Below the pieces are notes generated by a model. That model searched no databases, had not been told where the DNA came from, and saw only the letters and a program-made list of their open reading frames with translations. From positions 868,001-932,000 of the forward strand of contig JAGRPL010000004.1 in NCBI GenBank assembly GCA_019449595.1: a stretch of DNA of 64,000 nt, given 5' to 3'. The translations under genes were made by a program, and so were the position numbers. Of this stretch, positions 1,258 through 59,293 are shown one piece after another. Position 1 is the first letter of the stretch; each line of letters opens with the position of its first letter. Source of the DNA: Rhodoferax sp. (GTDB taxonomy: Bacteria; Pseudomonadota; Gammaproteobacteria; Burkholderiales; Burkholderiaceae_C).

Positions 1258-2693
1258 TGAAATACCTCAGCACCCGCGGCGCCCCCGAGCGCAAACGTTT
1301 CTGTGAAATCCTGCTCGAAGGCCTGGCGCCCGACGGCGGCCTGTACCTGCCCGAGTCCTACCCGCAGGTCAGCGACGCCACCTTGACGCGCTGGCGTACG
1401 GTGTACCACCAGCAGGGCTATGCCGAGCTGGCGTTTGAAGTGCTGTCGCTCTACATCGACGACATCCCGGCTGCCGACCTGCGCGCCCTGTGCGAGAAGA
1501 CCTACACCGCCGAGGTCTTCGGCACCGGCGAGATCGTGCCCCTGCGCCACCTGGAAGAAGGCGTGTGGCTGGAAGCTCTGTCCAACGGCCCCACGCTGGC
1601 GTTCAAGGACATGGCCATGCAGCTGCTGGGCAACCTGTTCGAGTACGAGCTGGCTCGCCGCGGCGAAGAGCTCAACATTCTGGGCGCCACCAGCGGCGAC
1701 ACCGGCAGCGCTGCCGAATACGCCATGCGCGGCAAGAAGGGCGTGCGCGTCTTCATGACCAGCCCGCATGGTCGCATGAGTGCCTTCCAGCAGGCCCAGA
1801 TGTTCAGCCTGCAGGACGCCAACATCTACAACATCGCCGTCAAGGGCGTGTTCGACGACTGCCAGGACATGGTCAAAGCCGTCTCCAACGACCTGGCGTT
1901 CAAGCGCCAATACCGCATTGGTACCGTCAACTCCATCAACTGGGCGCGCCTGCTGGCCCAGGTGGTGTACTACTTTGCCGGCTACATCCAGGCCACGCAA
2001 GCCAATAGCCAGAAGGTCAGCTTCACCGTACCCAGCGGCAACTTCGGCAACGTCTGCGCCGGCCACGTGGCCCGCATGATGGGCCTGCCGATCGACAAGC
2101 TGGTGGTGGCCACCAACGAAAACGACGTGCTCGACGAGTTCTTCCGCACCGGTGTCTACCGCGTGCGCGGCAGTGCCGACACGCACGAGACCTCCAGCCC
2201 GTCCATGGACATTTCCAAGGCCAGCAACTTCGAACGCTTCGTGTTCGACCTGCTGGGCCGCGACGGTGCCCGTACCGCCGACCTGTTCGGCGCCCAGCTG
2301 GCAAAGAACGGCCGCTTCGATTTGAGCGCCGACCCCGCCTTCGCCCAGTGCGCCAGCCGTTACGGCTTTGTCAGCGGCAAGAGCACCCACGCCAACCGGC
2401 TGGACACCATCCGCGCCACCTGGCAGCACTATGGCGTGATGATCGACACCCACACCGCCGACGGCTTGAAGGTGGCACGCGAGCACCTGACAGCCGGTGT
2501 GCCCATGCTGGTGCTGGAAACCGCCTTGCCCATCAAGTTTGCCGAAACCATTGTGCAAGCCCTGGGGCGTGAGCCCGAGCGGCCGGCCAAGTTCGAGGGC
2601 ATCGAGGCCCTGCCCAAGCGGGTACAGGTGATGGAGGTCGACGTGGCCGCCATCAAGGCCCTGATTGCACGGGAATGCGCACATTCGGCATGA
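1257..2693 (+). CDS. thrC: Threonine synthase
   Basis: A PLP enzyme that converts O-phosphohomoserine to threonine in the cytoplasm. The 478 residues fit the longer class of bacterial threonine synthases. The N-terminus (MKYLSTRG) is characteristic, and Lys117 in the LAFKDMA motif is the expected Schiff-base lysine. A glycine-rich phosphate-binding stretch (GATSGDTGSAAEYA) follows, then SFTVPSGNFGN. It overlaps hom by one base, giving a hom-thrC operon with the last two steps from aspartate semialdehyde apart from the kinase. The downstream gap to moeA holds a copy of the dispersed repeat whose outer end reaches the thrC stop codon. Confidence 0.97.
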   Translation: MKYLSTRGAPERKRFCEILLEGLAPDGGLYLPESYPQVSDATLTRWRTVYHQQGYAELAFEVLSLYIDDIPAADLRALCEKTYTAEVFGTGEIVPLRHLEEGVWLEALSNGPTLAFKDMAMQLLGNLFEYELARRGEELNILGATSGDTGSAAEYAMRGKKGVRVFMTSPHGRMSAFQQAQMFSLQDANIYNIAVKGVFDDCQDMVKAVSNDLAFKRQYRIGTVNSINWARLLAQVVYYFAGYIQATQANSQKVSFTVPSGNFGNVCAGHVARMMGLPIDKLVVATNENDVLDEFFRTGVYRVRGSADTHETSSPSMDISKASNFERFVFDLLGRDGARTADLFGAQLAKNGRFDLSADPAFAQCASRYGFVSGKSTHANRLDTIRATWQHYGVMIDTHTADGLKVAREHLTAGVPMLVLETALPIKFAETIVQALGREPERPAKFEGIEALPKRVQVMEVDVAAIKALIARECAHSA

Positions 2694-2747
2694 AAAGTGC
2701 CGCTGGCCCGCGCAGTTGGTGCGCAGGCAGCTATATAAATCGTAGCA
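2692..2747 (-). repeat. Dispersed repeat, copy 1 (thrC-moeA gap)
   Basis: The 27-base core at 2721-2747 reads GCGC, three variable bases, CAGCTAT, an AT-rich middle and GTAGCA. AGCTA and TAGC form the hairpin arms. The flank at 2692-2720 resembles the outer half found in the longer copies. The element fills nearly the whole gap between thrC and moeA, so it may end up in the transcript of both. The strand sign only marks orientation relative to the copy in moeA. Confidence 0.75.
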
Positions 2748-2763
2748 AATAGAGAGTCCAGGT

Positions 2764-4005
2764 ATGACCCCACCGCCACGCCCCAGCTTCCAGCCACTGG
2801 ACGACGCCCTGAAGACCCTGCTGGCGCATGCCGTGCCCCTGCAGGCGGTGGAGTCGGTGCCCACCGCCGACGCCGATGGCCGCGTGCTGGCGCAGGACGT
2901 GGTCTCCAGCCTGCACGTGCCGCCGCAGGACAACAGCGCCATGGACGGCTATGCCCTGCGTTGCGCGGACGCGCTCATACCCGGCGCGCAGCTGCCGGTG
3001 TCCCAGCGCATTGCCGCCGGCATGAACGGTACGGCGCTGGAGCGCGGCACCCTGGCGCGCATCTTCACCGGCGCCCCGGTGCCTCCGGGCGCCGATGCCG
3101 TGGTCATGCAGGAAGACTGCACCGTGCTGCCGGACGATGCCGGCGTGCAAGTCAATACCGCGCCCAAGCTGGGCCAGAATATCCGCCGCGCCGGTGAAGA
3201 CGTGGCGCGGGGGGACGTGGTGCTGACCGGCGGGCAGCTGCTGGGCCCGGCCGAGCTGGGGCTGGCGGCCAGCGTGGGCATGGCTGCGCTTTCCGTGGTG
3301 CGCCGTCCCCGGGTGGCCCTGTTCTCCACCGGCGACGAACTGGTCATGCCCGGCACCGTGGCGCCACAGGATATGCCCCCGGGCGCCATCTACAACTCCA
3401 ACCGCTTCTTTCTGAAGGCACTGCTGCGCCGCCTGGGCTGCGAGGTGACCGATCTGGGCATCGTTCCCGACCAGCGCGAGGCCACGGTGCACGCGCTGCG
3501 CGAGGCCGCCGCTTCGCATGACGTCATCTTGACCAGCGGCGGCGTGTCGGTCGGCGAGGAAGACCACATCAAGCCCGCTGTGCAGACGCTGGGCACGCTG
3601 GACCTGTGGCACATCGCCATCAAGCCGGGCAAGCCGTTTGCCTATGGTCATATCGGCGACTGCCACTTCCTGGGCCTGCCGGGCAACCCGGTGGCCAGCT
3701 TTGTGACCTTCCTGGTGCTGGTGCGTCCCTTCCTGCAGCGTCTGCAGGGGTTGCCCCTGGCCGATGTTGCTATGAAAACCATAGCTGTCCGCGCAGATTT
3801 CACCTGGCCCAAGTCGGACAAACGCCGCGAATTCCTGCGGGTGCGGCGCAATGCCAATGGCGGGCTGGACCTGTTCTCCAACCAGGGCTCGGGCGTGCTC
3901 ACCTCCGCGGTGTGGGGCGACGGCCTGGTGGACAACCCGCCCGGCTGCACCATCGCCCCCGGAGACATGGTCCGCTTTGTTTCGTTCGCGGAGTTGCAGG
4001 CATGA
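2764..4005 (+). CDS. moeA: Molybdopterin molybdenumtransferase MoeA
   Basis: It inserts molybdate into adenylylated molybdopterin to make active molybdenum cofactor. At 413 residues it has the usual length. Visible are the PPQDNSAMDGYA segment near residue 53, the MoaB/MogA-like domain with FSTGDEL around residue 193 and LTSGGVSVGEEDH near residue 257, and the PGNPVAS loop. The C-terminal beta domain holds an in-frame copy of the dispersed repeat (residues 335-344), which leaves the protein only about two residues longer than I would expect. The stop overlaps the moaD start (ATGA), so moeA, moaD and moaE form one operon. It is separated from thrC by 70 bases. Confidence 0.96.
   Translation: MTPPPRPSFQPLDDALKTLLAHAVPLQAVESVPTADADGRVLAQDVVSSLHVPPQDNSAMDGYALRCADALIPGAQLPVSQRIAAGMNGTALERGTLARIFTGAPVPPGADAVVMQEDCTVLPDDAGVQVNTAPKLGQNIRRAGEDVARGDVVLTGGQLLGPAELGLAASVGMAALSVVRRPRVALFSTGDELVMPGTVAPQDMPPGAIYNSNRFFLKALLRRLGCEVTDLGIVPDQREATVHALREAAASHDVILTSGGVSVGEEDHIKPAVQTLGTLDLWHIAIKPGKPFAYGHIGDCHFLGLPGNPVASFVTFLVLVRPFLQRLQGLPLADVAMKTIAVRADFTWPKSDKRREFLRVRRNANGGLDLFSNQGSGVLTSAVWGDGLVDNPPGCTIAPGDMVRFVSFAELQA
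3768..3794 (+). repeat. Dispersed repeat, copy 2 (core only, inside moeA)
   Basis: A 27-base core in the orientation TGCTAT - AAAACC - ATAGCTG - NNN - GCGC, inside the coding sequence of moeA and read in frame as residues 335-344. The TGCTAT and ATAGC arms form a short hairpin. The ATA isoleucine codon and GCT codons it brings are uncommon in the surrounding high-GC sequence. The outer half of the element is not recognisable here. Confidence 0.7.
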
Positions 4006-4253
4006 AGGTGCACCTGAAGTACTTTGCCTCCATCCGGGAGGCGCTGGGGACCGGTGGCGAGTCGCTGGACACCCAGGCCACCACCCTGGCGGCGCTGCGC
4101 GACGAACTCATTGCCCGCGGCGATGCCTACGCCGAGGCCCTGGCGCGCGGCAAGTCGGTGCGCCTGGCGCTCAACCAGACGCTCAGCGACGAATCCCAGG
4201 CGCTGACCGAGGGCGCTGAAGTGGCATTTTTCCCGCCGGTGACCGGGGGATAA
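4002..4253 (+). CDS. moaD: Molybdopterin synthase sulfur carrier subunit MoaD
   Basis: An 83-residue ubiquitin-fold protein whose C-terminal glycine is adenylylated and then thiocarboxylated to deliver sulfur to MoaE. The sequence ends in VTGG, the required double glycine. The start ATG overlaps the moeA stop as ATGA, which fixes the start. A longer open frame extends upstream inside moeA, but it is out of the moeA frame and has no family match. moaE begins four bases after the stop. MoaD and MoaE together form the heterotetrameric synthase that turns cyclic pyranopterin monophosphate into molybdopterin. Confidence 0.95.
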   Translation: MKVHLKYFASIREALGTGGESLDTQATTLAALRDELIARGDAYAEALARGKSVRLALNQTLSDESQALTEGAEVAFFPPVTGG

Positions 4254-4257
4254 GGCC

Positions 4258-4770
4258 ATGGCGACGTCACCCCGCGTTTCCATCCAGACGGCGGATTTTG
4301 ACGTGGCGGCCGAAATTGCCGTCCTGCGCGCCCACGACCACCGGGTGGGTGCGGTCTGCAGCTTCATCGGCACGGTGCGTGACCGCAATGCGGCTCCCGC
4401 GTCCGAGGGCGGCCTGGCGGCGAAAGACCAGGTGCTGTCCATGGAGCTGGAGCACTACCCCGGCATGACCGAGAAGGCCATCGAGGCCATGATCGACGAG
4501 GCGCACCGCCGCTTCGACATCTTCGCCGCCCGCGTCATCCACCGCATTGGCCTGCTGCAGCCGCCCGACCAGATCGTGCTGGTGGCCGTCACCTCGGCCC
4601 ACCGAGGCGAGAGCTTCCAGGCCTGCGAGTTCCTCATGGACTACCTCAAGACCCAGGCCCCCTTCTGGAAGAAGGAACAGACGCCCGAGGGCGCGCGCTG
4701 GGTCGATGCCCGGGTTAGCGACGATGCGGCGCTGGCCAAGTGGGGCATCGTGGCGCCTAACGCGGGTTAA
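4258..4770 (+). CDS. moaE: Molybdopterin synthase catalytic subunit MoaE
   Basis: The large subunit of molybdopterin synthase, 170 residues. Visible are CSFIGTVRD (about 34-42), the LEHYPGM segment, the AHRGESFQACEF stretch, and lysines 131, 138 and 139 in KTQAPFWKKE. That region supplies the active-site lysines in the family. The C-terminus carries the conserved WVDA. It follows moaD by four bases and is the last gene of the moeA-moaD-moaE operon. The other cofactor genes (moaA, moaC, mogA) are not in this window. Confidence 0.96.
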   Translation: MATSPRVSIQTADFDVAAEIAVLRAHDHRVGAVCSFIGTVRDRNAAPASEGGLAAKDQVLSMELEHYPGMTEKAIEAMIDEAHRRFDIFAARVIHRIGLLQPPDQIVLVAVTSAHRGESFQACEFLMDYLKTQAPFWKKEQTPEGARWVDARVSDDAALAKWGIVAPNAG

Positions 4771-4795
4771 CGGTGTCTCGCGCCGGGTGACATTT

Positions 4796-4868
4796 GCCCA
4801 ATGGGGCTTGCCGGGGGCCTCATGGTGCCAAACGCGCACAAATCGGCCCCCAGCAAGCCCCATAGGGC
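4796..4868. repeat. Imperfect 73-base inverted repeat between moaE and clpB
   Basis: Left arm 4796-4819 and right arm 4845-4868 are 24 bases each with two mismatches, separated by a 25-base loop. The inner parts are ATGGGGCTTGC and GCAAGCCCCAT plus a run of G/C. The predicted stem is very stable, but there is no T-run after it, so a simple intrinsic terminator is unlikely. It does not match the dispersed repeat. It could be a Rho- or RNase-stopping structure at the end of the moa message or a protein-binding site in front of clpB. Confidence 0.75.
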
Positions 4869-4928
4869 CTTCGGTTGTTGACGCGTATCAAAGAGCAAGC
4901 CTAGACTGGCCCGATGTGCACCAACCCA

Positions 4929-4957
4929 CTTGAAATGCGTGTGCAAACGCCCAAGAT
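4929..4957 (+). promoter_or_regulatory. Candidate sigma-32 heat-shock promoter of clpB
   Basis: CTTGAAA at 4929-4935 matches the -35 consensus of the heat-shock sigma factor exactly. About 13-14 bases further, GCCCAAGAT (4949-4957) is a partial match to the -10 consensus CCCCATnT. The clpB start lies 35 bases downstream, which suits a short leader. clpB is a classic sigma-32 target, so the context supports the call. The -10 match is only moderate. Confidence 0.5.
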
Positions 4958-4991
4958 GGGAAGCAATTCACCATTTCGTTAAGGGATTTGC

Positions 4992-7589
<2,598 letters not shown>

Positions 7590-7614
7590 AGCACCGGTCG
7601 CGGCATCTGATTGC

Positions 7615-7653
7615 GGGCTAGAGGTCTTTTGGGCCTCTAGTCCGTATTTTATT
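7615..7653 (+). terminator. Terminator after clpB
   Basis: A ten-pair stem (7615-7624 with 7634-7643, one G-U pair) has a nine-base loop and is followed by the T-rich GTATTTTATTT. It sits 26 bases past the clpB stop. Its right arm overlaps the outer half of a dispersed-repeat copy, so the terminator may have been partly built from that element. Confidence 0.75.
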
Positions 7654-7681
7654 TGCGCATACAGCTATGAATCTAGTAGCA
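7630..7681 (-). repeat. Dispersed repeat, copy 3 (downstream of clpB)
   Basis: The core 7655-7681 reads GCGC, ATA, CAGCTATGA, ATCTA, GTAGCA, again exactly 27 bases. The outer half (7630-7654) contains GGCCTCTAG, matching the outer half of other copies in type and spacing. It lies between clpB and the 3' end of the leftward antitoxin gene. Confidence 0.75.
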
Positions 7682-7704
7682 AATTCTGGCTGGTTTTTGT
7701 CAGA

Positions 7705-8019
7705 TTAAACAGTTTCCAGGCGTTGCACCATGCCGGGAAATTTCGCCACCATGCGAATGAGTACCGCAGCCAGGGCATTGGGTTTGGCGCGGCCTTGCTC
7801 CCAGTTTTCCAGCGTGCGGGGGGCGGTGCATAAATAGCGGGCAAACATCTGACGCGACAGGTGCAGCTTCTCGCGCACTGCCAGCACTTTTTGCGGCTCC
7901 AGCACGGGAACGGGTTTGGACTCTACCTGCACATGGCGCAACGTCAGCTTGCCCTTGCGTTCGGCCGTCAGGGCATCAAACCCCTCGACGATTTCCGAAG
8001 AAATATCGCGTTTGTTCAT
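7705..8019 (-). CDS. HigA/MqsA-type antitoxin, helix-turn-helix protein
   Basis: A 104-residue DNA-binding protein. Its C-terminal half (about 45-100) has an XRE-type helix-turn-helix with LHLSRQMFARYL, followed by TLENWEQGRAKPNALAAVLI, the pattern of antitoxins paired with RelE/HigB-like toxins. Such proteins bind and neutralise the toxin and repress their own operon. The start ATG overlaps the stop of the toxin remnant as ATGA, the usual toxin-first order of this class. The antitoxin frame is intact although the toxin is broken. It has no other partner nearby and may persist as a free-standing regulator. Confidence 0.85.
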   Translation of the reverse strand: MNKRDISSEIVEGFDALTAERKGKLTLRHVQVESKPVPVLEPQKVLAVREKLHLSRQMFARYLCTAPRTLENWEQGRAKPNALAAVLIRMVAKFPGMVQRLETV

Positions 8020-8240
8020 GTCGACTCCTTTCCTTGGCGGCTCTGTCGCTCTGTGTCTAGCAGTCGCCTGATAGTTTTACGTTGATCTGCAGTTAAATCG
8101 TCTGCCTGATCCTTGTCGTATACCGTAAACAATCAAAACTGCGCACCTCCCAGCCACCAGTAGCAGATCACGCGTAGCCCGCCGCGCTTGCCTTTGCCTC
8201 TGCGCGGGTCTGCTAGCCTGACCTTGCGTAGGCCAGCAGC
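8016..8240 (-). pseudogene. Broken RelE/HigB-like toxin gene
   Basis: Reading leftward, the frame gives LRKVRLADPRRGKGKRGGLR, then VICYWWLGGAQF and a TGA stop at 8133-8135. After that, in the same frame, come LFTVYDKDQADDL, TADQRKTIRRLLDTE and a final stop overlapping the antitoxin start. The two pieces together match the conserved C-terminal two thirds of RelE-family toxins, where a tryptophan (TGG) normally sits at the stop, so a single G-to-A change explains it. Upstream of LRKVR I see no recognisable toxin N-terminus, so the gene is probably also truncated at the front. The boundary near 8240 is approximate. Confidence 0.8.
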
Positions 8241-8443
8241 GTTGGTGCTGCTGACACTTTTATATTGGGCACATTTCTCTTGCTCCATCGTTCCTCTCAT
8301 TAAAGGTTTTTGCGTCCCTAGAGCCGTTCTAGACACGTCTACGAGAGTGAATCCACCGGTTTTATATGTGTTAACCTTTCCAGCACTCGGCTTCAATCCG
8401 AGCGCCCTGGGGAGGGTCATAAATTGACAATGGGAATACCAAT
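8241..8443. other. AT-richer spacer upstream of the exported-protein gene
   Basis: No gene is supported here. The stretch separates the divergent toxin remnant and the 8444 gene and must hold the promoters of both if they are still used. TATATG and TTGACA-like hexamers occur but not in a convincing pair. Base composition falls here from the high GC of clpB toward the low GC of the next gene. Confidence 0.5.
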
Positions 8444-15060: not shown

Positions 15061-16012
15061 CCGTATCGCCGCCCGGCAGGGTGGCCAACAGCACGCCCAG
15101 CAGCGCCATGGCAAACGCCAGCAGCTGCAGCCCGCTGAGGGTTTCGCCCAGCACCAGCACGCCGACCAGTGCGGCCGAGATGGGCAGCATGACCGTGAAC
15201 ACCCCCGCGTGGGCCGCGGGCACGGTCCGCAGGCCGCTCATCCACAGCCACACGGTCCAGACGCTGGCGGCCAGGGCATAGAACACCAGCAGTGTCCAGG
15301 AAGACAGCGCGACCGCGCTGAAGTCGAAACGCAGGGCGGCGTACAGCCCCAGGGGCGTCATCAGCAGAAACCCCCACAGGTTGATGAGCGCGGTGATGCG
15401 CTTGGGCGACAAGGTACCCGTGAGTTTCTTGCCGATGACGGCGTAGGCGGCCTCGCACAGCACGGCGGCGAACACCAGCAGATTGCCCAGCAGGGTCTTG
15501 TTGTGGGTCAAATCGGCCGCAGAGCCGCCTGGAACCTGCGGAGATAGCTCATTTTTTGATAGCGCAAGCAATCCGATCCCCAGGGCGCCGAACGCGACGG
15601 CGGCCCATACACGCAGGCCAATGCGCTCCTTGAGAAAGGCCCAGCTCATCACCGCCACCACCGCCGGAATGCTGGCCATGATGACGCCGGCCGACACGGC
15701 GCTGGTCATGCTGACGCCGAACAGCATGCAGATCGAAAACAGGAAGTTGCCCAGGAAAGATTCGAGGAACAGAAGCCTGCGGGTGGCGGGGGCCATGGGG
15801 GCCTCGTCAGCGGGGCGTTTGAGCCAGTGCGCAATCGCCAGGCCGCCAATGCCAAAGCGCAGCCAGCCCAGCAGGAAGACGGGCAGGGCGGCAACCAGCG
15901 GTTTGGACAGCGCCACGTAGCTGCCTACCAGGGACATGCTCAGGGCCAGGAAAAAGTAGGCCACCCAGCGGCTGGGGGTGTGGCTGGAGGGGCGATCGGT
16001 GTGCAGTGTCAT
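15044..16012 (-). CDS. EamA/DMT-family exporter
   Basis: A 322-residue inner-membrane protein with ten predicted helices in two EamA repeats, the layout of drug/metabolite (amino acid or metabolite efflux) carriers. The loop between the two repeats (about residues 150-168, SKNELSPQVPGGSAADL) is encoded by a copy of the dispersed repeat. I chose ATG 16012, close to the first helix; an upstream ATG at 16039 is possible. It diverges from the polyamine gene cluster, which hints at but does not prove a link with amine metabolism. Its 3' end overlaps the rraA-like gene on the other strand. Confidence 0.88.
   Translation of the reverse strand: MTLHTDRPSSHTPSRWVAYFFLALSMSLVGSYVALSKPLVAALPVFLLGWLRFGIGGLAIAHWLKRPADEAPMAPATRRLLFLESFLGNFLFSICMLFGVSMTSAVSAGVIMASIPAVVAVMSWAFLKERIGLRVWAAVAFGALGIGLLALSKNELSPQVPGGSAADLTHNKTLLGNLLVFAAVLCEAAYAVIGKKLTGTLSPKRITALINLWGFLLMTPLGLYAALRFDFSAVALSSWTLLVFYALAASVWTVWLWMSGLRTVPAAHAGVFTVMLPISAALVGVLVLGETLSGLQLLAFAMALLGVLLATLPGGDTVTPAA
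15510..15564 (-). repeat. Dispersed repeat, copy 4 (inside the DMT exporter gene)
   Basis: The core 15538-15564 is 27 bases, GCGG, AGA, TAGCTC, a T-run and GATAGCG. The outer half 15510-15537 begins AAATCGGCCGC, close to the copy in purL that begins AAATCGGCTGC. It encodes exporter residues of about 150-168 between the two EamA halves. Confidence 0.7.
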
Positions 16013-28385: not shown

Positions 28386-28399
28386 GGTTTGTGTCCAAA

Positions 28400-28451
28400 G
28401 ATGCTGGTTTGTCGCGTGTATCCTGCGGCTGTAGCTACTATTTTTGTAGCA
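28400..28451 (-). repeat. Dispersed repeat, copy 5 (infC leader)
   Basis: The core 28425-28451 reads GCGG, CTG, TAGCTAC, a T-run and GTAGCA (27 bases). It forms a hairpin nine bases before the infC ribosome site. The outer half is less clear than in other copies. Confidence 0.65.
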
Positions 28452-28460
28452 AATATTGTG

Positions 28461-29826: not shown

Positions 29827-29840
29827 TTTTCGCTATGGTC

Positions 29841-29898
29841 CGCTATCTCCGTGATAGCTGCCAGTGCAAATAGAACAAGGGCTGGAGCTTGAAAGAGC
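29841..29898 (+). repeat. Dispersed repeat, copy 6 (rplT-pheS gap)
   Basis: The core 29841-29867 reads CGCTATCTCCG, TGATAGCTG, CCA, GTGC (27 bases, perfect GCTATC/GATAGC arms). The outer half (to about 29898) contains AGGGCTGGAGCTTGAAAG, aligned with the outer half of the prmB copy. It occupies most of the gap between rplT and pheS. Confidence 0.75.
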
Positions 29899-29912
29899 AC
29901 TGGCCCTTTTTC
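29877..29912 (+). terminator. Possible terminator or attenuator before pheS
   Basis: AAGGGC (29877-29882) pairs with GCCCTT (29903-29908), with further weak inner pairing, and is followed by TTTTTC. The left arm belongs to the dispersed repeat. In E. coli pheST is attenuated at this position, but I see no phenylalanine-rich leader peptide here. Confidence 0.5.
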
Positions 29913-34501: not shown

Positions 34502-34578
34502 CGGTGTGTGGCGCAGCCTGGTAGCGCACTTGCATGGGGTGCAAGGGGTCGAAGGTTCGAATCCTTTCACACCGACCA
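34502..34578 (+). tRNA. tRNA-Pro (anticodon GGG)
   Basis: The 77-base gene includes the encoded CCA. The acceptor stem CGGTGTG/CACACCG, D arm, anticodon stem CTTGC/GCAAG with loop ATGGGGT (anticodon GGG), variable loop GGGTC and T arm with TTCGAAT all pair. Discriminator base is A at 34575. It reads CCC and CCU codons. Confidence 0.97.
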
Positions 34579-37986: not shown

Positions 37987-38870
37987 TTCAAAAGCGCTTC
38001 GCGCGTGAGGAGCAGGACCTGGTCTTCACCAGCGCTGGTTTCGAGCCAGACCACTTCCAGTTGGGGAAATGCGGCTTCAAAGTGGTGGCGTTCATGGCCG
38101 ATTTCGAGCACCAGCACGGCATCGGGAGCCATGTGCTGCGGGGCGCTTTGCAGCAGGGCGCGGACAAAGTCCATGCCGTCGCCGCCGCCGGCCAGGGCCA
38201 GGGTGGGCTCGGCCCGGTATTCCGCGGGCAGCTCGGCCATGCTCTGGGCGTTGACGTACGGCGGGTTGCACAGGATCAGGTCAAACGGGCCGCGCGCCTG
38301 CAGGGCGGGCGCGCCGAGACCGTCGGACTCCAGCAGGGTAATGCGGTCCTGCAGGCCGTGCTTGTCCACATTGATGCGGGCCACGGCCAGGGCGTCCGGC
38401 GACAGGTCGGAGGCGGTCACCGCCACTTCGGGGTAGACCATGGCCGCCAGAATAGCCAGGCTACCGTTGCCGGTGCACAGGTCCAGCACGTTGTGCGTGG
38501 TTTCCTTCAGCCAGTAGTCGATGCTGCCGTCCACCAGCAGCTCGGCAATCAGCGAACGGGGCACGATGGCGCGCTCGTCCACATAAAACGCCACACCCTG
38601 CAGCCAGGCCTCGCGCGTGAGGTAGGCGGCGGGTTTGCGGGTGGCAATGCGTGCTTCCAAAAGTGTAGCTACTCGCGCAGCATCTGCGGGCGCTACAGCC
38701 TGATTGGCTATGGAATCTTCGCCCTCCAGCGCGGCGTCCAGCGGCAGGCCCAGGCACCACAGCACCAGCCAGGCCGCTTCATCACGCGCGTTGGTGGTGC
38801 CGTGGCCAAACGAAACGTGGGCCTGCGTGAGCTGCTGCGCACCGGATTCAATCAGTTCAAGCAGGGTCAT
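37983..38870 (-). CDS. prmB: Ribosomal protein L3 glutamine methyltransferase PrmB
   Basis: It methylates a glutamine of ribosomal protein L3 using S-adenosylmethionine. The 295 residues have an N-terminal helical domain, the SAM-binding motif [13 protein letters not shown] (about 139-151) and the catalytic NPPY motif. [22 protein letters not shown] is typical of PrmB rather than PrmC. The loop at residues 53-73 is encoded by a dispersed-repeat copy. Start and stop overlap the neighbours on both sides as ATGA, so it is translationally coupled to dapE and the ABC-F gene. Confidence 0.94.
38652..38712 (+). repeat. Dispersed repeat, copy 7 (full length, inside prmB)
   Basis: The core 38652-38678 reads TGCTTCCAAAAG, TGTAGCT, ACTC, GCGC. 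The outer half (38679-38712) contains GCGGGCGCTACAGCC and GGCTATGG. This is one of the clearest full-length copies. It encodes PrmB residues of about 53-73 on the opposite strand. Confidence 0.75.
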
Positions 38871-40069
38871 GCGCGGGCCTGGCGTTCCAGATTCTCCAGC
38901 ACGCGCCGGTAGATGTTTTTCAGCGGCTCGATGTCGGCCACGGCCACATACTCGTTGATCTTGTGGATGGTGCCGTTGGGTGGGCCCATCTCGATCACCT
39001 GCGGGCAGATCTGGGCGATGAAGCGCCCGTCGCTGGTGCCGCCGGTGGTGGAGAGCTGGGTCTGCAGCCCGGTTTCCGCCAGGATGGCGTCGCGCGCGGC
39101 GTCCACCAGCGTGCCAGGGGTGGTCAGAAAGGGCAGGCCGCCTACGGTCCAGGTCAGGTCGTATTCCAGCTCGTATTTCTCCAGTACGCGGGCCAGGCGG
39201 GTCTGCAGGGACTCGGGCGTGGATTCGGTGGAAAAGCGGAAATTGAAGTCGACCACCACCGCGCCGGGGATGATGTTGCTCGCTCCCGTGCCGCCGTGGA
39301 CGTTGCTGACCTGCCAGGTGGTGGGCGGGAAAAAGTCGTTGCCCCGGTCCCACTCGATGGTGACCAGCTCCGCCAGCGCGGGCGCCAGCAGGTGGATGGG
39401 GTTCTTGGCCAGGTGCGGGTAGGCAATGTGGCCCTGTACGCCCTTGACCGTGAGCTTGCCGCTCATGGTGCCGCGCCGGCCGTTCTTGATCATGTCGCCG
39501 GTGCGCTCCACCGCCGTGGGCTCGCCCACGATGCAGTAGTCCAGCGTTTCGCCCCGCGCCTTCAGGGCGTTGCAGACCACCACCGTTCCGTCGTTGGCCG
39601 GGCCCTCTTCGTCGCTGGTGAGCAGCAGGGCCATGCCCAGGGCGGGCTGTGGGTTGGCGAGCAGGAATTCTTCGATGGCCACCACGAAGGCGGCCAGTGA
39701 GGTCTTCATGTCGGCGGCGCCGCGGCCGTACAGCTTGCCGTCGCGCACGCTGGGGGTGAAGGGGGCGCTGTCCCACTCGGTCACGGGTCCGGTAGGGACC
39801 ACGTCGGTGTGGCCGGCGAATACCAGGGTCTTGCTGGGCGTTGTGCTTGCTATGGATTTGCTAGCTGTCTGCGCATTGTTGGCGGGCGTTCCGGCCCGTT
39901 TTGCCCACAAATTGGTGACCGAGAACTCGGCCGGGCCGCTGGTGATGGTTTCGCAGGCAAAACCCAGCTTGGCCAGCCGCTGTGCGATGAGTTCCTGGCA
40001 GCCCACGTCGGCAGGGGTGACCGAGGCCCGCGCAATCAGTTGCTCGGCCAGTTGCAGTGTTTTTGACAT
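38867..40069 (-). CDS. dapE: Succinyl-diaminopimelate desuccinylase
   Basis: A zinc peptidase-family enzyme that removes succinate to yield LL-diaminopimelate for lysine and cell wall. The 400 residues include [12 protein letters not shown] (metal ligand His), [15 protein letters not shown] (bridging Asp) and TSDEEGPA (catalytic Glu). Between NLWAKR and FAGHTDVV lie 25 residues, where E. coli DapE, as I recall it, has about seven. The extra stretch coincides with a dispersed-repeat copy. The start overlaps the pilU stop by one base and the stop overlaps the prmB start. Confidence 0.96.
39848..39905 (+). repeat. Dispersed repeat, copy 8 (full length, inside dapE)
   Basis: The core 39848-39874 reads TGCTATGGATT, TGCTAGCTG, TCT, GCGC (27 bases). 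The outer half runs on to about 39905 through GGCGGGCGTTCCGGCC. It encodes DapE residues 55-74 on the opposite strand, at the point where the protein is longer than relatives. Confidence 0.8.
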
Positions 40070-46988: not shown

Positions 46989-50130
<3,142 letters not shown>

Positions 50131-50778: not shown

Positions 50779-51624
50779 ATGATGAGTGCCGAACTCAGCA
50801 AGAAGCTGACCGCTGCCGTTGAAAACATGCCGGCATTCCCCAAGAGCGTGCAGAAAATCATCGAGTTGACGCGCGACGCCAACTGCACGCCCAAGGACCT
50901 GGTTGAAGTGATCGACAAGGATCCGGTGGTCACGGTCAAGATTCTCAAGGTCGTCAATTCCGCGTACTACAGCCTGCCCAAGCAGGTCACCTCCATTGGC
51001 CACTCGGTGGTGTTCCTGGGGTTCAACACTATCAAGAACCTGGCGCTGTGCATCGCGGCCATCGGCATGCTGCCCAAGGAAAACGAGGCCGGTTTCGACG
51101 GCCAGCAGTACCTGCTGCATTCGCTGGCCACGGCCGGCATTGCCAAGCAGCTGGCGCAGCGCGTGCAGAACGCCGACCCCATGGACTGCTTCATTGCCGG
51201 CTTGCTGCACGACTTTGGCAAGGTGGTGCTGGCCCAGTACATGCCGGAAGAATTCCGCACCGCACTGGAGATCAGCAAGCGCCAGGGCACCTCCTTGCAT
51301 CTGGCCCTGCGCGAAGTCATTGGCGCGGACCATGCGGTGGTGGGCGCCATGCTGGTGGAGAAGTGGCGCTTTGCGCCCCCTCTGGTGGAAACCATCCGCA
51401 ACCAGTACGGGCACGACCTGGCTGACACCGACATGGTTGCCTGCGTCTTTGCCGCCAACCAGATCAGCAAGAAGCTCAAGTTCGGTTTTGGCGGCAACGC
51501 GTGCATCGAAGAGCTGCCACCCGCCATTGCCCAGCGCCTGGGCGGCTCGCTGGACACGGTGATTGCGTCGCTGGGCGACTTGACCCCGGTCTTCGAGGAA
51601 GCCCTGATTTTTTCCAAGATCTGA
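50779..51624 (+). CDS. HDOD-domain signalling protein
   Basis: A 281-residue protein made up of a single HDOD domain. The N-terminal LPAFPKSVQKIIEL-like opening reads MPAFPKSVQKIIELTRD, followed by VIDKDPVVTVKILKVVNSAYY, the helical core and LLHDFGKVVLAQY, which keeps an HD pair. Such proteins act in regulation of motility, DNA repair or c-di-GMP networks and lack a proven enzyme activity. It follows def after 102 bases and has an alternative start three bases later (ATGATG). Confidence 0.92.
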   Translation: MMSAELSKKLTAAVENMPAFPKSVQKIIELTRDANCTPKDLVEVIDKDPVVTVKILKVVNSAYYSLPKQVTSIGHSVVFLGFNTIKNLALCIAAIGMLPKENEAGFDGQQYLLHSLATAGIAKQLAQRVQNADPMDCFIAGLLHDFGKVVLAQYMPEEFRTALEISKRQGTSLHLALREVIGADHAVVGAMLVEKWRFAPPLVETIRNQYGHDLADTDMVACVFAANQISKKLKFGFGGNACIEELPPAIAQRLGGSLDTVIASLGDLTPVFEEALIFSKI

Positions 51625-51646
51625 GCGGCGCTGCGCCGCCGCGTGC

Positions 51647-54241
51647 TCAGGCCGACAGCGCCTGCAGCAGTTCGGTCTCGATCTCGATCTGTGCCTTGTT
51701 GTGCTGCAGTTCGGGGCCGTCGATCAGGAACGTGTCTTCCACCCGTTCGCCTAGCGTGGCCACCTTGGCCAGCTGCAGGTTGATACGGTGTTTGGCCAGC
51801 ACCCGGGCCACGCTGTAGAGCAGGCCCATGCGGTCGCTGGCTGAAATGTTCAGCAACCAGCGCTGTGCCTTTTCGTCCGGGCTCAGGGTCACACGCGGGG
51901 TCACCGGAAAACTCTTCACCCGCCGTGACACGCGGCCCCGGCTGGGCGCGGGCAGGGGGCCGGCGTCGGCAATGGCCTTGGACAGGCCGCTCTCCAGCAG
52001 GCTGCTGACTTCCCGGTACTCCTCCGGCGGGGCCGAGGTGGTGATCTGGAAGGTGTCCAGCGCGTGCCCGTTCTTGGCGGTGTGGATGCGCGCGTCCAGG
52101 ATGCTGAAGCCGCCCTGGTCGAAGTAGCCACAGATGCGGGCAAACAGGTCCGGCTGGTCGGGGGCGTAGACCAGCACCTGCAGGCCCTCGCCGGCGGGCG
52201 AGCGGCGCGCCCGCACTATGGCCTGCTTCGAGTCCACCAGGCGCGACAGCTGGCGGGTGTGCCAGGCGATGTCGCCGGCGTCGTGGCGCATGAAATACCC
52301 CACGTCCAGTGCATCCCACAGGTGTTTGTGGGCTTCAAAGGGCAGGGAGTGCATGGCCACCAGGATCAGGGCCTCGCGCTTGCGGGCCTCCACCTCGGCG
52401 TCGGGATCGGGGGCGCGCCCGCCCAGCGCCCGCGCGGTGTAGCGGTACAGGTCTTCCAGTAGCTTGCCCTTCCAGGCATTCCATACCTTGGGCGAGGTGC
52501 CGCGGATGTCGGCCACGGTGAGCAGGTACAGCGCGGTGAGCTGGCGCTCGTTGCCGACCCGCTTGGCAAAGTCGGCAATCACCTGGGGGTCGCTCAGGTC
52601 GGACTTCTGCGCGATCTGGCTCATGGCCAGGTGCTCGCGCACCGCAAATTCGATCAGCTGCGCGTCTTCGCGGGCAAACCCGTGCTGCTTGCAGAAGCGC
52701 CGCACCTCCGCCGCACCCAGCTCCGAGTGGTCGCCGCCGCGGCCTTTGGCAATGTCGTGGAACAGGGCGGCCACGTACAGCAGCCAGGGCTTGTCCCAGC
52801 CGGCGGCCAGCTGCGAGCAAAACGGGTATTCGTGCGCGTGCTCCACGATGAAAAAACGGCGCACATTGCGCAGCACCATCAGGATGTGCTGGTCCACCGT
52901 GTACACATGGAACAGATCGTGCTGCATCTGCCCCACGATCTTGCGGAATACCCACAGGTAGCGGCCCAGGATCGAGGTCTGGTTCATCAGCCGCATGGCG
53001 TGCGTGATGCCCTGGGGCTGCATGAGGATCTGGCGGAACGTCTCGCGGTTTACCGGGTCGCTGCGAAAGCGCGCGCCCATCAGGTCGCGCGTGTTGTACA
53101 GGGCGCGCAGGGTGCGCGCCGACAGGCCCTTGATGCCGACGGTCTGTTGGTAGACCAGGAAGGTTTCCAGAATGGCGTGCGGCTCGCGCACGTACAGGTC
53201 GTCGCTGACCACGTCGAGCATGCCGGCCTTGTCGTTGAAATGGGCGTTGATGCGCTGCGGCGCGTGGGTGGAGGGGTTGAGCCGTTCCTCGATGTTGAGC
53301 AGCAGGATCTGGTTGAGCTGGGCGACGGCCTTGGCCGCCCAGTAGTAGCGCTTCATCAGCGTTTCGCTGGCGCGTATGAACGATTTCCGGTTCGTGCCCT
53401 GAGCCGAGGAGGCGTAGCCAAACGATTCGGCCACGGCGTTCTGCATGTCGAAGACCAGGCGGTCTTCGCGGCGGCCGGCGATCAGGTGCAGGCGGGCGCG
53501 GATGAGCAGCAGCAGGGACTCGTTACGCTGGATCTGCCGCACCTCGAACGGTGTGGCCAGGCCGCTTGTGGCCAGGGCGTTCCAGTTGGTGCCGTAGCCC
53601 GCTGCCTTGGCCACCCACAGGACGACCTGCAGGTCGCGCAGCCCCCCGGGCGACTCCTTGCAATTGGGTTCCAGCGCGTAGGGCGTGTTTTCGTACTTGG
53701 TGTGGCGCTGGTGCATTTCCAGCGTCTTGGCGACGAAGAAGGCCTGGGGGTCCAGGGCCGCAAAGAAGGCCTTCTGGAACTGCGCCACCAGCGCGGCGTT
53801 GCCGGTCACGAGGCGGCATTCCAGCAAGGCGGTTTGCACGGTCACGTCTTTTTCGGCTTCGGCCAGGCAGTTGCTCAGGGTGCGCACGCTGGAGCCGATC
53901 TCCAGCCCGGAATCCCAGCAGCTGCCGATGAAGGCCTCAATCCGGCCTTTCAGCGCAGCGTCTTCTTCGGGGGCAGCGCCATCGGGCAGTAGCAGCAGCA
54001 CGTCCACGTCGGAGTGGGGAAACAGCTCGCCGCGCCCGTAGCCGCCGACGGCCAGCAGGGCCTGGGGCGACTGCAGGCCGGCGTGCTCCCACAACTGGAT
54101 GAGCAGGCCGTCGGCCAGCTGCGACAGGCGGTGCAGGGCCTTGCGCACGTCCCGCGCGCTGGCGCCGCGCGCGCCAATGGCCTGCAGCAGCAGGGTTTTC
54201 TGGGCACGGTAGTCGGCGCGCAGCGCCTGCAGGTCAGCCAT
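51647..54241 (-). CDS. glnD: PII uridylyltransferase / uridylyl-removing enzyme
   Basis: It is the glutamine sensor that adds and removes UMP on PII proteins. The 864 residues have the nucleotidyltransferase motif GGYGRGE (66-72) with DVD at 78-80, a central helical region, the HD domain with [16 protein letters not shown], and two C-terminal ACT domains (from about 680 and 790), one opening [15 protein letters not shown] and the other [18 protein letters not shown]. All four parts are present. It lies downstream of map on the same strand, 29 bases away. Confidence 0.97.
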
Positions 54242-54270
54242 GGGACGTTGCGTGCCGCCGCGCCGTGGGG

Positions 54271-55092
54271 TCAGGCGGCGGATTGCGCCGGGACAAACGC
54301 CGGGATGGGCGGGCTGCCGGCGGAGAGGGTCAGCACCTCGTAGCCGGTGGGGGTGACCAGAATGGTGTGTTCCCACTGGGCCGACAGCGAGCGGTCCTTG
54401 GTGACGATGCTCCAGCCGTCTTTCTCGGGGCCTTCCTTGATGTCCTTGCCGCCGGCGTTGATCATGGGCTCGATGGTGAAGGTCATGCCCGCTTCCAGCC
54501 GTTCCAGCGTGCCGGGGCGGCCGTAGTGCAGCACCTGGGGCTCCTCGTGGAACCCTCGGCCGATGCCATGGCCGCAGAATTCGCGCACCACGCTGAAACC
54601 GTGGGCCTCGGTGAATTTCTGGATCGCATGGCCGATGTCGCCCAGGTGGATGCCGGGCTTGACCAGCATGATGCCGTGCCACATGGCCTCGTAGGTGATG
54701 GTGCACAGGCGCCGGGCGGCAATGGAAACGTCGCCCACCATGAACATGCGGCTGGAGTCGCCATGCCAGCCGTCCTTGATGACGGTGACGTCCACGTTGA
54801 CGATGTCGCCTTTCTTGAGCGGCTTGTCGTTGGGAATGCCGTGGCAGACTTGGTGGTTGATCGAGGTGCAGACCGATTTGGGGTAGGGCGTGCTGCCGCC
54901 GCCCATGTAGTTCAGCGGCGCGGGAATGGCGTGTTGCACCTGGGTGATGTAGTCGTGGGCCAGCTTGTCGATTTCGTTGGTGGTCACACCGGGCTTGACG
55001 AAGGGGGTCAGGTAATCCAGCACTTCCGCCGTCAGCCGGCCGGCCAGGCGCATGCCTTCGATGCCCTGGGCGTCTTTGTAGGTAATTGTCAT
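54271..55092 (-). CDS. map: Methionine aminopeptidase, type I
   Basis: It removes the N-terminal methionine. The 273 residues include the metal-binding set: [19 protein letters not shown], the [17 protein letters not shown] segment with its histidine, FTIEPMIN and a final glutamate near WEHTILV. ATG 55092 gives the family start [18 protein letters not shown]. It is divergent from purL, and rpsB, often the neighbour of map, is not within the window. Confidence 0.96.
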
Positions 55093-55267
55093 GCCCCAAT
55101 TATCCCCGAGGGGATGCTTTCCTGCTGGTGCCGGCGCTTTTGCGCCGGTGCCCGGCAAACGGGCGGGCCCGGCGGGTAAAATCAGCAGTCTTCGCATGCA
55201 GGCCCAGTCAGCGCTTGTTGCGTGACTGTTTCCTCAACGCCATCCGCCCATTTTCAAGGCCACCACA

Positions 55268-58200
55268 GTGACCCTGCACATCACCCAATTCGAGGGCAGT
55301 AACGCCCTGAGCAGCTTTCGCGTCCAGCAACTTCTGCCGGGCCTGACGGCCATTCACGACAAGATCACTGGCATTTCGGCGCGTTTTGTGCACCTGGTGG
55401 CGTCCGATGGCGCGCCCGACGCGGCCCTGACCGCCCAGCTGGCAGCCCTGCTGACCTACGGCGACCCGTATGCCGGCCCGGTGGAGGGCCCGCTGATCGT
55501 GGTTTCGCCCCGTCTGGGCACCGTGTCGCCCTGGGCGTCCAAGGCCACCGACATCGCCCACAACTGCGGTTTTGCCGTCCGGCGCATCGAGCGGCTGGTG
55601 GAGTACCGGCTGACCCTCAAGAGTGGCCTGCTGGCCAAGGCGGCGCTCTCCACGGAGCAGCTCGAGCGCATCGCTGCCATGCTGCACGACCGTATGACCG
55701 AGAGCGCCATGCTGGAGCGCGCCCAGGCCCTGGGCCTGTTCAGCGCCCTGCAGGCTGCGCCCATGGACCATGTGGATGTGCTGGGCGGTGGCAAGGCGGC
55801 CCTGGAAAGTGCCAACCGCGATTGGGGCCTGGCCCTGGCGGCTGACGAGATCGACTACCTGGTCAACGCCTTCACCCAGCTCCAGCGCAACCCCACGGAC
55901 GTGGAGCTGATGATGTTTGCCCAGGCCAACAGCGAGCACTGCCGCCACAAGATCTTCAACGCCCAGTTCACCATCGACGGCGTGGCGCAGGACCAGAGCA
56001 TGTTCGGCATGATCCGCCACACGCACCAGACCAACCCGCAGCACATGCTGGTGGCCTATTCGGACAACGCCTCCGTGATGGAAGGCGTGCAGGTCGAGCG
56101 TTTTGTTGCCAAATCGGCTGCCGGCGGGCAGGGCATCTGCGCGGGCAGCTATGAAAAGCATAGCGAAACCAACCACATCCTGATGAAGGTGGAAACCCAC
56201 AACCACCCCACCGCCATTTCCCCCTTCCCCGGTGCTTCCACCGGGGCCGGCGGCGAGATCCGCGATGAAGGGGCCACCGGCCGCGGCTCCAAACCCAAGG
56301 CCGGTCTGACCGGTTTCACGGTCTCCAAGCTGTGGGGCAGTGATTTCGGCAAGCCCGAGCACATTGCCAGCCCGCTGCAGATCATGATCGAAGGCCCGCT
56401 GGGCGGCGCGGCCTTCAACAACGAATTCGGCCGGCCCAACCTGCTGGGCTATTTCCGCGAGTACGAGCAGCGCGTGGAAAGCAGCGTGGACACCGTGCAG
56501 CGCGGCTACCACAAGCCCATCATGATCGCTGGGGGCCTGGGCGTCATCGACGCCGGCCAGACCCACAAGATCGAATTCCCCGCCGGCAGCCTGCTGATCC
56601 AGCTCGGCGGCCCCGGCATGCGCATCGGCATGGGCGGCAGTGCGGCCAGCTCCATGGCCACGGGCGCCAACGCGGCCCACCTGGACTTTGATTCGGTGCA
56701 GCGCGGCAACCCCGAAATCGAGCGCCGCGCGCAAGAGGTCATCAACCAGTGTTGGGTGCAGGGCGAGCAGAACCCCATCCTGGCGATCCACGACGTGGGT
56801 GCCGGCGGTTTGAGCAACGCCTTCCCCGAGCTGACCAACGACGCCGGCCGCGGCGCCCGTTTTGATCTGCGCGCGGTCAAGCTGGAAGAATCCGGCATGG
56901 CGCCCAAGGAAATCTGGTGCAACGAGAGCCAGGAGCGCTACGTGCTGGCCATTGCGCCGGAGTCGCTGGCGCAGTTCCAGGCCCTGTGCGAGCGTGAGCG
57001 CTGCCCGTTTGCCGTGATCGGTGTCGCCACCGAGGAGCGCCAGTTGCAACTGGTGGACGAGGGCAAGGAAAGCCCTGTCGACATGCCCATGAACGTGCTG
57101 CTGGGCAAGCCGCCCAAGATGCACCGCGACGTCAAGACCGTGGCGCGCACGTTCAAGCCCTTGGACCTGACGGGCGTGGAGCTGCAGAAAGCCGTGATCG
57201 ACGTGCTGGCCCATCCCACCGTCGCCTCCAAGCGTTTTCTCATCACCATTGGCGACCGCGCCGTGGGCGGGCTGACGCACCGCGACCAGATGGTGGGCCC
57301 CTGGCAGGTACCGGTGGCCGACTGCGCCGTGACCCTGGCCGACTTCAAGGGCTTTGCCGGCGAGGCCATGGCGATGGGAGAGCGCACGCCGCTGGCCGCA
57401 CTGGACGCGCCCGCATCCGGCCGCATGGCCGTGGCCGAGGCCATCACCAACTTGCTGGCCGCCCCCATGGAGCTGAGCCGCGTGAAGCTCTCCGCCAACT
57501 GGATGGCCGCCTGCGGCGAACCCGGCGAAGACGCCGCGCTGTACGCCACCGTCAAGGCCGTGGGTCTGGAGCTGTGCCCGGCGCTGGGTATTTCCATTCC
57601 GGTGGGCAAGGATTCGCTGTCCATGCGCACCCAGTGGCAGGACGCGCAGGGCGACAAGAAGGTCACCTCTCCCGTATCCCTGATCGTCAGCGCCTTCGCC
57701 ACGCTGGCCGACGTGCGCGGCACCCTGACGCCGCAGCTCAACGCCACGGAAGACACCACCCTGGTGCTGGTTGACCTGGGCCATGGCCAGAACCGCATGG
57801 CCACCAGCATCCTGGCGCAGACGCTGGACCAGGTGGGCGACGCAGTGCCCGATCTGGACGCCGCCGAAGACCTGGTCAACCTGGTTGCGGCCGTGAACTA
57901 CCTGCGTGACAAAGGCATGATCCTGGCCTACCACGACCGCAGCGACGGCGGCCTGCTGGCCACCGTGGCCGAGATGGCCTTTGCCGGCCGCGTCGGCGTG
58001 GCGCTGAACGTGGACATGCTGGTCACCGAGGGCGATGGCATTTCCGACAGCCGCATGGACGCGGGCGATGCCAAGAACTGGGCCGGCCAGATCAGCGGCC
58101 GGCGTGACGAACTCACGCTCAAGGCCCTGTTCAGCGAAGAGCTGGGCGTGGTGCTGCAGGTGCGCACCATGGAACGCGGCGACGTGATGCAGGTGCTGCG

Positions 58201-59293
58201 CGCGCATGGCCTGTCCCAGCACAGCCACTACATCGGCAAGACGCGGCCCGAGTCGTCCAAGATCGACGCCGGCAAGGGCGAACTGCAGATCTGGCGCGAC
58301 GCCAAGTCCATCTTCAAGGCCTCGCTGTCCGACCTGCACCAGGTCTGGGACAGCGTGAGCTGGAAGATCTGCCAGCAGCGCGACAACCCGGCCTGCGCCG
58401 ACGCCGAGCATGCCGCCGCGGGCGCTGCGGGCGACCCGGGGCTCCATGTTTATGTTCCCGATTCCGTGCTAACCCGCGTGGAATCTGCGCAGGCAGCTAC
58501 CAAAAAAGGAGCGCCCGCGGTGCTGACAGCCCGCCCCAAGGTGGCCGTGCTGCGCGAGCAGGGCGTCAACTCCCATGTGGAAATGGCCTACGCCTTCACC
58601 GAAGCGGGCTTTGAGGCCTTCGACGTGCACATGACCGACCTGCAAAGCGGCCGCGCCAAGTTGGCCGACTTCAAGGGCGTGGTGGCCTGCGGTGGCTTCA
58701 GCTATGGCGACACCCTGGGCGCCGGCATTGGTTGGGCGCGCTCCATCACCTTCAATGCCGCGCTGGCGGAGCAGTTCAAAGCCTTCTTTGGACGTGGCGA
58801 CACCTTCGGCCTGGGCGTGTGCAACGGCTGCCAGATGTTTGCCGAACTGGCCGACATCATCCCCGGGGCGCAGGACTGGCCGCGCTTTACCACCAACCAG
58901 AGCGAGCGCTTCGAGGCGCGCCTGTCCATGGTGGAAGTGCTGGAGTCGCCCTCCCTGTTCTTCAAGGACCTGGCCGGCATGCGCCTGCCCATTGCCGTGG
59001 CGCACGGCGAGGGTTTTGCCAACTTCAAGTACCGCGGCAACGCGGCCAAGGCCATTGCCGCTATGCGTTATGTGGACAACACGGGCGCGGCGACGGAAGC
59101 CTACCCGTTCAACCCCAACGGCAGCCCGGGTGGACTGACGGCCGTGACCACGGCGGACGGCCGCTTCACGGCCATGATGCCGCACCCCGAGCGGGTGTTC
59201 CGCAACATCCAGATGAGCTGGAACGGACTGGACGCCAACGCCCACAGCCCGTGGATGCAGCTGTGGCACAACGCCCGCCGGTGGGTGGGCTGA
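55268..59293 (+). CDS. purL: Phosphoribosylformylglycinamidine synthase (large form)
   Basis: The fourth step of purine synthesis, with glutamine as the ammonia donor. The 1341-residue single-chain form has an N-terminal domain, the FGAM synthase core with [19 protein letters not shown] and [10 protein letters not shown], a second core half, and a C-terminal glutamine amidotransferase with nucleophile Cys in GVCNGCQ and PHPERVF. It starts with GTG. Two dispersed-repeat copies are read in frame, at residues 282-300 and 1064-1082, the latter in the linker before the amidotransferase. It ends directly against the convergent chemoreceptor gene. Confidence 0.97.
56111..56165 (-). repeat. Dispersed repeat, copy 9 (inside purL, N-terminal part)
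   Basis: The core 56139-56165 reads GCGCGGG, CAGCTATGAAAAG, CATAGCG (27 bases, near-perfect GCTATG/CATAGC arms). The outer half begins AAATCGGCTGC at 56111. It is in codon phase 2, unlike the second purL copy. Confidence 0.75.
58457..58513 (-). repeat. Dispersed repeat, copy 10 (inside purL, interdomain linker)
   Basis: The core 58487-58513 reads GCGCAGG, CAGCTACC, an A-run and GGAGCG (27 bases). The outer half includes GCTAACCCGCG. It is in codon phase 1 and encodes residues of about 1064-1082, just before the amidotransferase domain. Confidence 0.7.

Follow-up and report, generated by a model that had tools for sequence, protein, structure and literature searches.

A dispersed, fixed-length DNA element of about 68 bp in Rhodoferax and its relatives, a possible DNA uptake or self-recognition signal

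DNA uptake sequences (DUS) and uptake signal sequences (USS) occur at a density of about one per 1–2 kb, inverted pairs and use as terminators are common among them but not universal, and we know of hardly any sequence-selective DNA uptake outside Pasteurellaceae and Neisseriaceae. Another kind of dispersed sequence, the Rickettsia palindromic elements, consists of insertions that are tolerated in frame in protein genes. For DUS and USS, the consulted sections of earlier work describe a conserved consensus in close surroundings that vary, permissive places in core genes, rarity in acquired DNA and dialects that differ by lineage (PMC2397512, PMC7811141, PMC3630211). In Comamonadaceae, selective DNA uptake through type IV pili has been reported, and the consulted sections of that report name no signal (PMC4212676); they state that Acidovorax temperans gave transformants with conspecific DNA only and that up to 1500-fold foreign DNA cut transformation of V. 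eiseniae just about 10-fold (PMC4212676). The consulted part of a 2017 survey lists, as potential novel motifs, ATAGCT(N)22CAAAAG in Polaromonas naphthalenivorans CJ2 (125 copies) and GCTTAT(N)5AAGCG in Acidovorax ebreus (114 copies), and places Rhodoferax ferrireducens T118, with 140 significant motif pairs, first of the 307 genomes that had such pairs (PMC5217627). Here we analyze a 64,000-nucleotide stretch of a Rhodoferax sp. genome (contig JAGRPL010000004.1, positions 868,001 to 932,000; the whole stretch is called the window), in which a preliminary description had listed ten copies of a dispersed repeat. All ten are members of one fixed-length element of about 68 bp, which extends from -38 to +28 with GCGC at position 0.

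Direct reading and alignment found all ten sites where they had been reported. To characterize the element, a 71-column weight matrix was trained on 30 oriented copies, all from outside the window. The consensus of these copies has an outer part, with TTT at -38, AAA(A/T) at -28, GG.C at -22, AG at -16 and CCCG at -12, and an inner part, with TGCGCA at -1, (C/T)AGCTA at 7, an A/T-rich stretch at 15–18 and (A/G)TAGCA at 21. Forty copies align over the 71 columns without gaps, 26 columns carry more than 0.8 bits, and the motif holds about 47 bits in total (0.666 bits × 71 positions). The fixed length claimed earlier was right, while the 27-base core to which it had been assigned was too short, as the block of about 68 bp takes in two further pieces, TTT at -38 and AAA at -27, neither of which had been listed.

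The held-out matrix recovered 10/10 of the listed sites at 12 bits or more (range 12.3 to 64.1) and added an eleventh copy in the window, inside ligA. Across 400 kb of the window's genome (C13:1-400000), it gave 56 matches at ≥10 bits, 48 of them reaching 30 bits, compared to none in the same stretch reversed and none in a fifth-order Markov copy. In G125, a one-contig chromosome of the same genus, 49 of 60 matches reached 30 bits, and 63 matches at ≥0 bits compare to a single one in the reversed control. Few copies are intermediate between clear copies and background. The 3.37-Mb genome contains 140 matches to a strict core, GCGCNNNYAGCTAN{8,12}TAGC, with 74 in forward and 66 in reverse orientation, and no match to the backwards pattern; a covariance-model search returned at least 150 candidates, all scored ones with E < 1e-7. 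Copies outside the window, which the preliminary description had anticipated, are therefore plentiful: the density of 68 copies in 464 kb extrapolates to about 500 copies per 3.37-Mb genome, and their spacing in the 400 kb is random-like with a mean of about 7.2 kb. The 13-base core alone, with one mismatch allowed, has 14 matches in the window and is not beyond chance (17 of 100 shuffles reach 14), whereas the full element has none in the reversed and Markov controls. In the consulted text of openly licensed papers, a literature search found no description of the element.

Between G125 and G207 (about 92% identical DNA), 44/44 copies with alignable flanks are common to both, and G125 copies with alignable flanks are also found in the more distant species G150 (46/50) and G182 (44/45). 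Copies without alignable flanks were excluded from these counts (19 and 3 for G125/G207, 13 and 14 for G125/G150, and 18 and 18 for G125/G182, the last with 2 more lacking synteny). Identity is about 80% between orthologous copies of G125 and G150 and about 50% between paralogous ones, which have little in common other than the consensus. The best paralogue pair is 75% identical among 122 copies of the window's genome, and the best pairs reach 76% among 85 copies of G125, 64 of G150 and 65 of G182, with one exception in G125. This is not the picture expected of a jumping repeat; the copies were probably passed on vertically and retained at their sites by selection or drive.

The preliminary description had proposed a repetitive extragenic palindromic (REP)-like element moved by a dedicated transposase. 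Like REP elements, the present one is dispersed in hundreds of copies and is in part an inverted repeat; it differs in showing no turnover at the scale tested, in having 46% of its copies in genes, in its fixed 68 bp and in its lack of association with Y1_Tnp, the RAYT (REP-associated tyrosine transposase)-like family. A Y1_Tnp gene of about 240 aa, mostly in single copy, is present in 55 of the 61 genomes of the genus set, including the window's genome (G000:C13:86939-87265), and it occurs in species with and without elements alike. Six differing sites were seen among G125, G150 and G182. Three lie in genes and keep the exact length, two of them being weak copies (14.7 and 10.0 bits), and one copy outside predicted genes (G125 108470) was lost in G150 by substitution with a 1-nt length difference. 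The remaining two, both intergenic, differ by about 90 nt, as might be expected of a mobile unit: 97 v 8 nt, and 142 v 50 nt where a G150 copy has no G125 counterpart and the direction is not polarised. The former is a deletion of 89 nt in G150, because G207 and G182 retain the copy. Unshared copies are no closer to the consensus than shared ones (p 0.22, 0.11 and 0.15), and by eye neither the 40-copy alignment nor the near-identical pair described below displays terminal inverted repeats or target duplication, the features of miniature inverted-repeat transposable elements (MITEs). That the element is a REP/RAYT-like or MITE-like mobile repeat, mostly fixed by now, is accordingly very unlikely, even though one Polaromonas locus has a purL copy that brings 42 extra nt. 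More than 100 copies together with presence/absence polymorphism had been suggested as a sign of mobility; the copy number is exceeded by the 140 strict cores, and the polymorphism is nearly lacking.

In the exceptional G125 pair, identity is 89% across the element but 28% in the flanks, and the two copies bracket a LysR/SnoaL segment (L250:11788-16569). This pair, which also speaks for mobility, shows that the element as a unit can be copied or recombined, and the matching locus in G192, which has one element, suggests recombination inside the element. Since gene-content junctions coincide with elements in this cluster, we considered whether the element could be a recombination site at which segments enter or leave by crossing over. 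Across six 400-kb comparisons, however, breakpoints fell at 17 of 176 intergenic elements and at 99 of 988 other intergenic gaps, and we regard such a role as highly improbable.

Constraint was assessed column by column. Between G125 and G207, changes affect 51 of 1144 positions in columns above 0.8 bits (4.5%) and 122 of 836 in columns below 0.3 bits (14.6%; p 4e-15), so that consensus columns change at about one third of the rate of variable columns; in the 200-bp flanks, 8.9% of bases are substituted compared to the 4.5% in consensus columns. A gap was found in only one of the 44 orthologous pairs. The contrast between consensus and variable columns holds for genic and non-genic copies and in three species pairs. 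These comparisons indicate that the element is held by selection.

Genes were called with a home-made script, and gene borders are approximate for that reason. Out of 131 copies in two genomes, 60 (46%) lie inside predicted genes and 71 outside, which agrees with the earlier statement that the repeat is placed both between and inside genes. In-gene copies are 34 sense and 26 antisense, and those within 100 bp 3' of genes are 35 and 28, so orientation is nearly independent of transcription. Among the best 150 matches on the G125 chromosome, 78 are on the plus and 72 on the minus strand, evenly spread; the same matches show a two-arc strand asymmetry (42 vs a shuffled mean of 20.8, p 0.008). A link of the elements to replication polarity found no support, as no relation to GC skew was seen by eye in six 400-kb stretches. 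Helical phasing of AT tracts was likewise considered, and with a best period of 11.0 and a permutation p of 0.10 we make no claim of it.

Within genes, one reading phase dominates among sense copies (29/34, p 6e-10) and one among antisense copies (20/26, p 7e-6). The earlier statement that copies occur in different reading phases was thus mostly wrong; stop codons in the other phases, as read off the consensus, would explain part of this preference. The accompanying claim, that conservation is at the level of DNA, is borne out. Copies within genes tend to lie in conserved ones: this applies to 28 of 31 in G125 against G207, compared to 158 of 253 mid-gene controls, with p < 0.005 in four of five comparisons and 0.12 in the fifth. 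In all three species pairs, sequence up to 50 bp from in-gene copies has lower identity and more gaps than sequence at 51–100 bp.

A signal acting in RNA, such as a processing, stability or termination hairpin, had been the second candidate of the preliminary description, which called the repeat a hairpin. The GCTAY/RTAGC inverted repeat does pair in 92.5% of cells, and copies are enriched between convergent genes (23 of 71 copies vs 47 of 297 gaps ≥50 bp, p 0.002). Yet this inverted repeat comprises just 5 bp without covariation, the RNAalifold consensus consists of 2 pairs at -0.87 kcal/mol, copies occur in both orientations relative to genes in near balance, no element site of the window has an Rfam match at gathering threshold, and terminator-like pairing in 4 of 256 copies is the same as in controls. 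We give an RNA-level signal hardly any weight. Because the near balance of orientations and the missing fold oppose RNA, and sharing between species opposes mobility as the main process, we read the signal as one that probably acts as DNA in trans.

How copies arise can be approached at sites within genes. Two such sites in the window, 38649 and 39845, were compared across 30 genomes for which the loci were returned. All 18 copy-rich genomes, that of the window included, carry the element at both, and neither any of the 10 copy-free nor either of the 2 few-copy genomes does. At site 38649 carriers and most non-carriers are equal in length; at site 39845 the carriers exceed genomes lacking the element by 9 to 45 nt, which is less than the length of a whole element. 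For purL, 80 named loci were examined. An element was found at the place corresponding to site 1 in 18 of them at ≥5 bits (two under 8 bits), carriers including Rhodoferax, Acidovorax, Polaromonas and Ottowia, and at the place corresponding to site 2 in 6. Both A. temperans and A. facilis have the element in purL. At site 1, the outer half of the element coincides with host ERFVAK codons and the inner half with host SYQK codons, and most non-carriers miss some residues between the two. The Polaromonas locus mentioned above (L175), where purL is 42 nt longer at the element, has three copies of one dialect. On these comparisons, in which few gains are polarised, we favour an origin of most copies in place, out of sequence already present. 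The element resembles the Rickettsia palindromic elements in being tolerated in frame within protein genes, and differs in that host codons are reused and that the in-gene differences either leave gene length unaltered or alter it by only part of an element's length.

The distribution among genomes is close to all-or-none. Of 60 congeners searched, with matches counted up to 83 per genome, 24 have at least 60 matches, 10 have between 1 and 25, and the other 26 lack them. A tree of 30 genomes requires a minimum of 3 changes between having and not having the element, and strongly supported branches force 2 for the state 'none'. Matches were found in 54 genomes of a 150-genome family sample, the window's genome included, and in 7 of a 300-genome order sample, namely 5 in the family (again with the window's genome) and 2 outside it with one match each. 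Dialects differ between genomes, and absence elsewhere is less certain since the model is tuned to the dialect of the window's genome. The family searches and the purL loci confirm the earlier impression that similar sequences occur across Comamonadaceae. Five genomes (G196, G171, G201, G189 and G195) have 10–63 matches, and G196 scores low at sites 38649 and 39845 (21.9 and 15.9 bits); these look like sets in decay.

The conjugative plasmid of R. ferrireducens T118 has none in 250 of its 257 kb, compared to about 37 expected from the chromosomes of five other genomes, and no copy was found in 50 kb of a P. naphthalenivorans plasmid. A strict pattern has matches in 3 contigs of a virus collection, and in a plasmid collection one query gave 2 weak matches and the other none. 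According to its record annotation, the R. ferrireducens plasmid carries type IV CRISPR-associated genes csf1-4 (L309:12810-18625).

Given these properties, we tentatively favour, at somewhat less than an even chance, the hypothesis that the element serves natural transformation as a sequence for DNA uptake or self-recognition. Its sequence and copy number, the absence of turnover, the constraint, the near orientation neutrality, the in-gene copies in conserved genes, the absence from one plasmid and the all-or-none distribution are observed; from them we infer an uptake function, a receptor, a drive and an origin in place. More specifically, the element on free DNA, whichever way it is oriented, would be bound by a receptor located at the outer membrane or on the type IV pilus, and fragments of kin chromosomes would then be taken up preferentially. 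Recombination with such fragments would restore and spread the element, a form of molecular drive. The dialect would drift along with the receptor, and where the receptor is lost the whole set would decay. The likeness to DUS and USS comprises many chromosomal copies, a conserved consensus in variable surroundings and dialects, and it extends in part to permissive places in core genes and rarity in acquired DNA; the published traits agree with most of our observations. If so, the element might exemplify a new class of long (68 bp), multi-part self-recognition signals with lineage dialects in a widespread environmental family, which would govern both uptake and recombination of DNA and be kept or lost as complete sets along with an undiscovered receptor; we hold this broader proposal with slightly less confidence.

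Several observations weigh against an uptake role. DUS and USS have a near-exact core of 9–12 bp, whereas the element is degenerate and 68 bp long, and its density of about one per 7 kb is lower than that of known uptake sequences. Inverted or terminator-like pairing was seen in 4 of 256 copies compared to 3 and 4 in controls, and no neighbouring copies lie within 300 bp of each other in four 400-kb stretches. Neither ComEC nor the pseudopilin family GspH (GspH/FimT) separates carriers from non-carriers, both being found in either group. With all columns averaged, identity in the element does not exceed that of the flanks (89.7% v 91.1%), the higher conservation being confined to the consensus columns. 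Gains are hardly polarised, and two of the differences are losses in G150. Intergenic copies of G125 are not depleted in regions unmatched in G207 (15 of 32 vs 48 of 161 controls), while in the reverse comparison 1 of 17 is unmatched vs 71 of 182 controls, so that the two directions disagree on whether intergenic copies are scarcer in unshared regions. As to the published experiments, the species barrier of A. temperans could be caused by recombination instead of uptake. An apparent loss of comEC in G174, which would have opposed uptake, was ruled out, as the contig ends just before comEC.

Much of the same evidence fits an intracellular DNA-binding factor with a part in chromosome organisation, segregation, repair or marking and none in uptake. 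Such a factor would tolerate any orientation, use about one site per 7 kb and have been lost several times, after which its sites decayed. Constraint without turnover, near orientation neutrality, even spread on one chromosome without an obvious gap, a multi-part asymmetric motif with TAGC/GCTA-like pieces, all-or-none loss and the lack of any copy on 250 kb of one plasmid are all consistent with it. The length of the element, the missing inverted pairs and the finding that none of three tested families is associated with the element leave room for such a factor. On the other hand, about 47 bits is much more than the 14 bits or so that would suffice for marking 500 sites, which would be unusual for a simple protein site, and we know of no chromosome-architecture protein with so long a site. 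The elements also bear no relation to GC skew by eye in the six stretches, and the selective uptake reported in the family offers the uptake hypothesis a ready role. We therefore consider an intracellular factor a real but doubtful alternative.

The DNA uptake hypothesis has the merit of being directly testable, as the candidate is precisely defined and has about 500 sites, carriers and non-carriers exist in nature as sister species, and some sets appear to be decaying. Should the element serve another role, it would point to an overlooked chromosome-wide DNA-binding system. Under either hypothesis, it is written into protein genes, among them purL, ligA, dapE, moeA and comEC.

Described motifs of the family were also compared. 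The motif pairs of the 2017 survey, in its consulted part, share with the element the family, a similar copy number, an ATAGCT half-site and the lack of a tie to transcription starts; they differ in being mostly intergenic, and that part contains no full element, conservation test or mechanism (PMC5217627). They may be fragments of this element family, although their exact patterns have 0 occurrences in the loci examined. The beta-proteobacterial repeat element BRE is likewise found in Comamonadaceae with some copies in genes; in the consulted sections it is about 90 bp long, often tandem in Bordetella and present in 4 copies in R. ferrireducens T118 (PMC3110155), the comparison being one of descriptions, not sequences.

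The eleven copies of the window are given here with their bits in the held-out matrix, host genes being named by Pfam/NCBIfam. Three plus-strand copies lie at the thrC/moeA junction (2683..2749, 57.3 bits), just 3' of clpB between convergent predicted genes (7617..7683, 43.1 bits) and across the 3' terminus of a small predicted ORF that has no family match (15500..15566, 30.0 bits). A minus-strand copy is inside moeA near its 3' end (3766..3832, 31.6 bits; MoeA by Pfam/NCBIfam). Farther on, one copy separates thrS from infC (28387..28453, +, 23.9 bits; ThrS and IF-3 families), and the weakest listed one separates rplT from pheS (29839..29905, -, 12.3 bits; L20 and PheS families). The copy compared above as site 38649 lies in a predicted ORF without family assignment, 38061-38912 (38650..38716, -, 38.7 bits), and that of site 39845 in the 5' part of dapE (39846..39912, -, 64.1 bits). 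purL holds two plus-strand copies, site 1 at 56101..56167 (47.2 bits) and site 2, ahead of the glutaminase domain, at 58449..58515 (43.0 bits). The copy absent from the earlier list lies inside ligA (48852..48918, +, 18.7 bits; matrix match 48849-48919). It covers a GFPV stretch, which we take to be conserved in LigA, and a closely similar copy is present in G125. Outside the window, comEC has two elements in the window's genome and also in G125 (L260:7917-10355, L267:9955-12459). The sole Rfam match in the window at gathering threshold is a tRNA gene at 34502-34575 (+).

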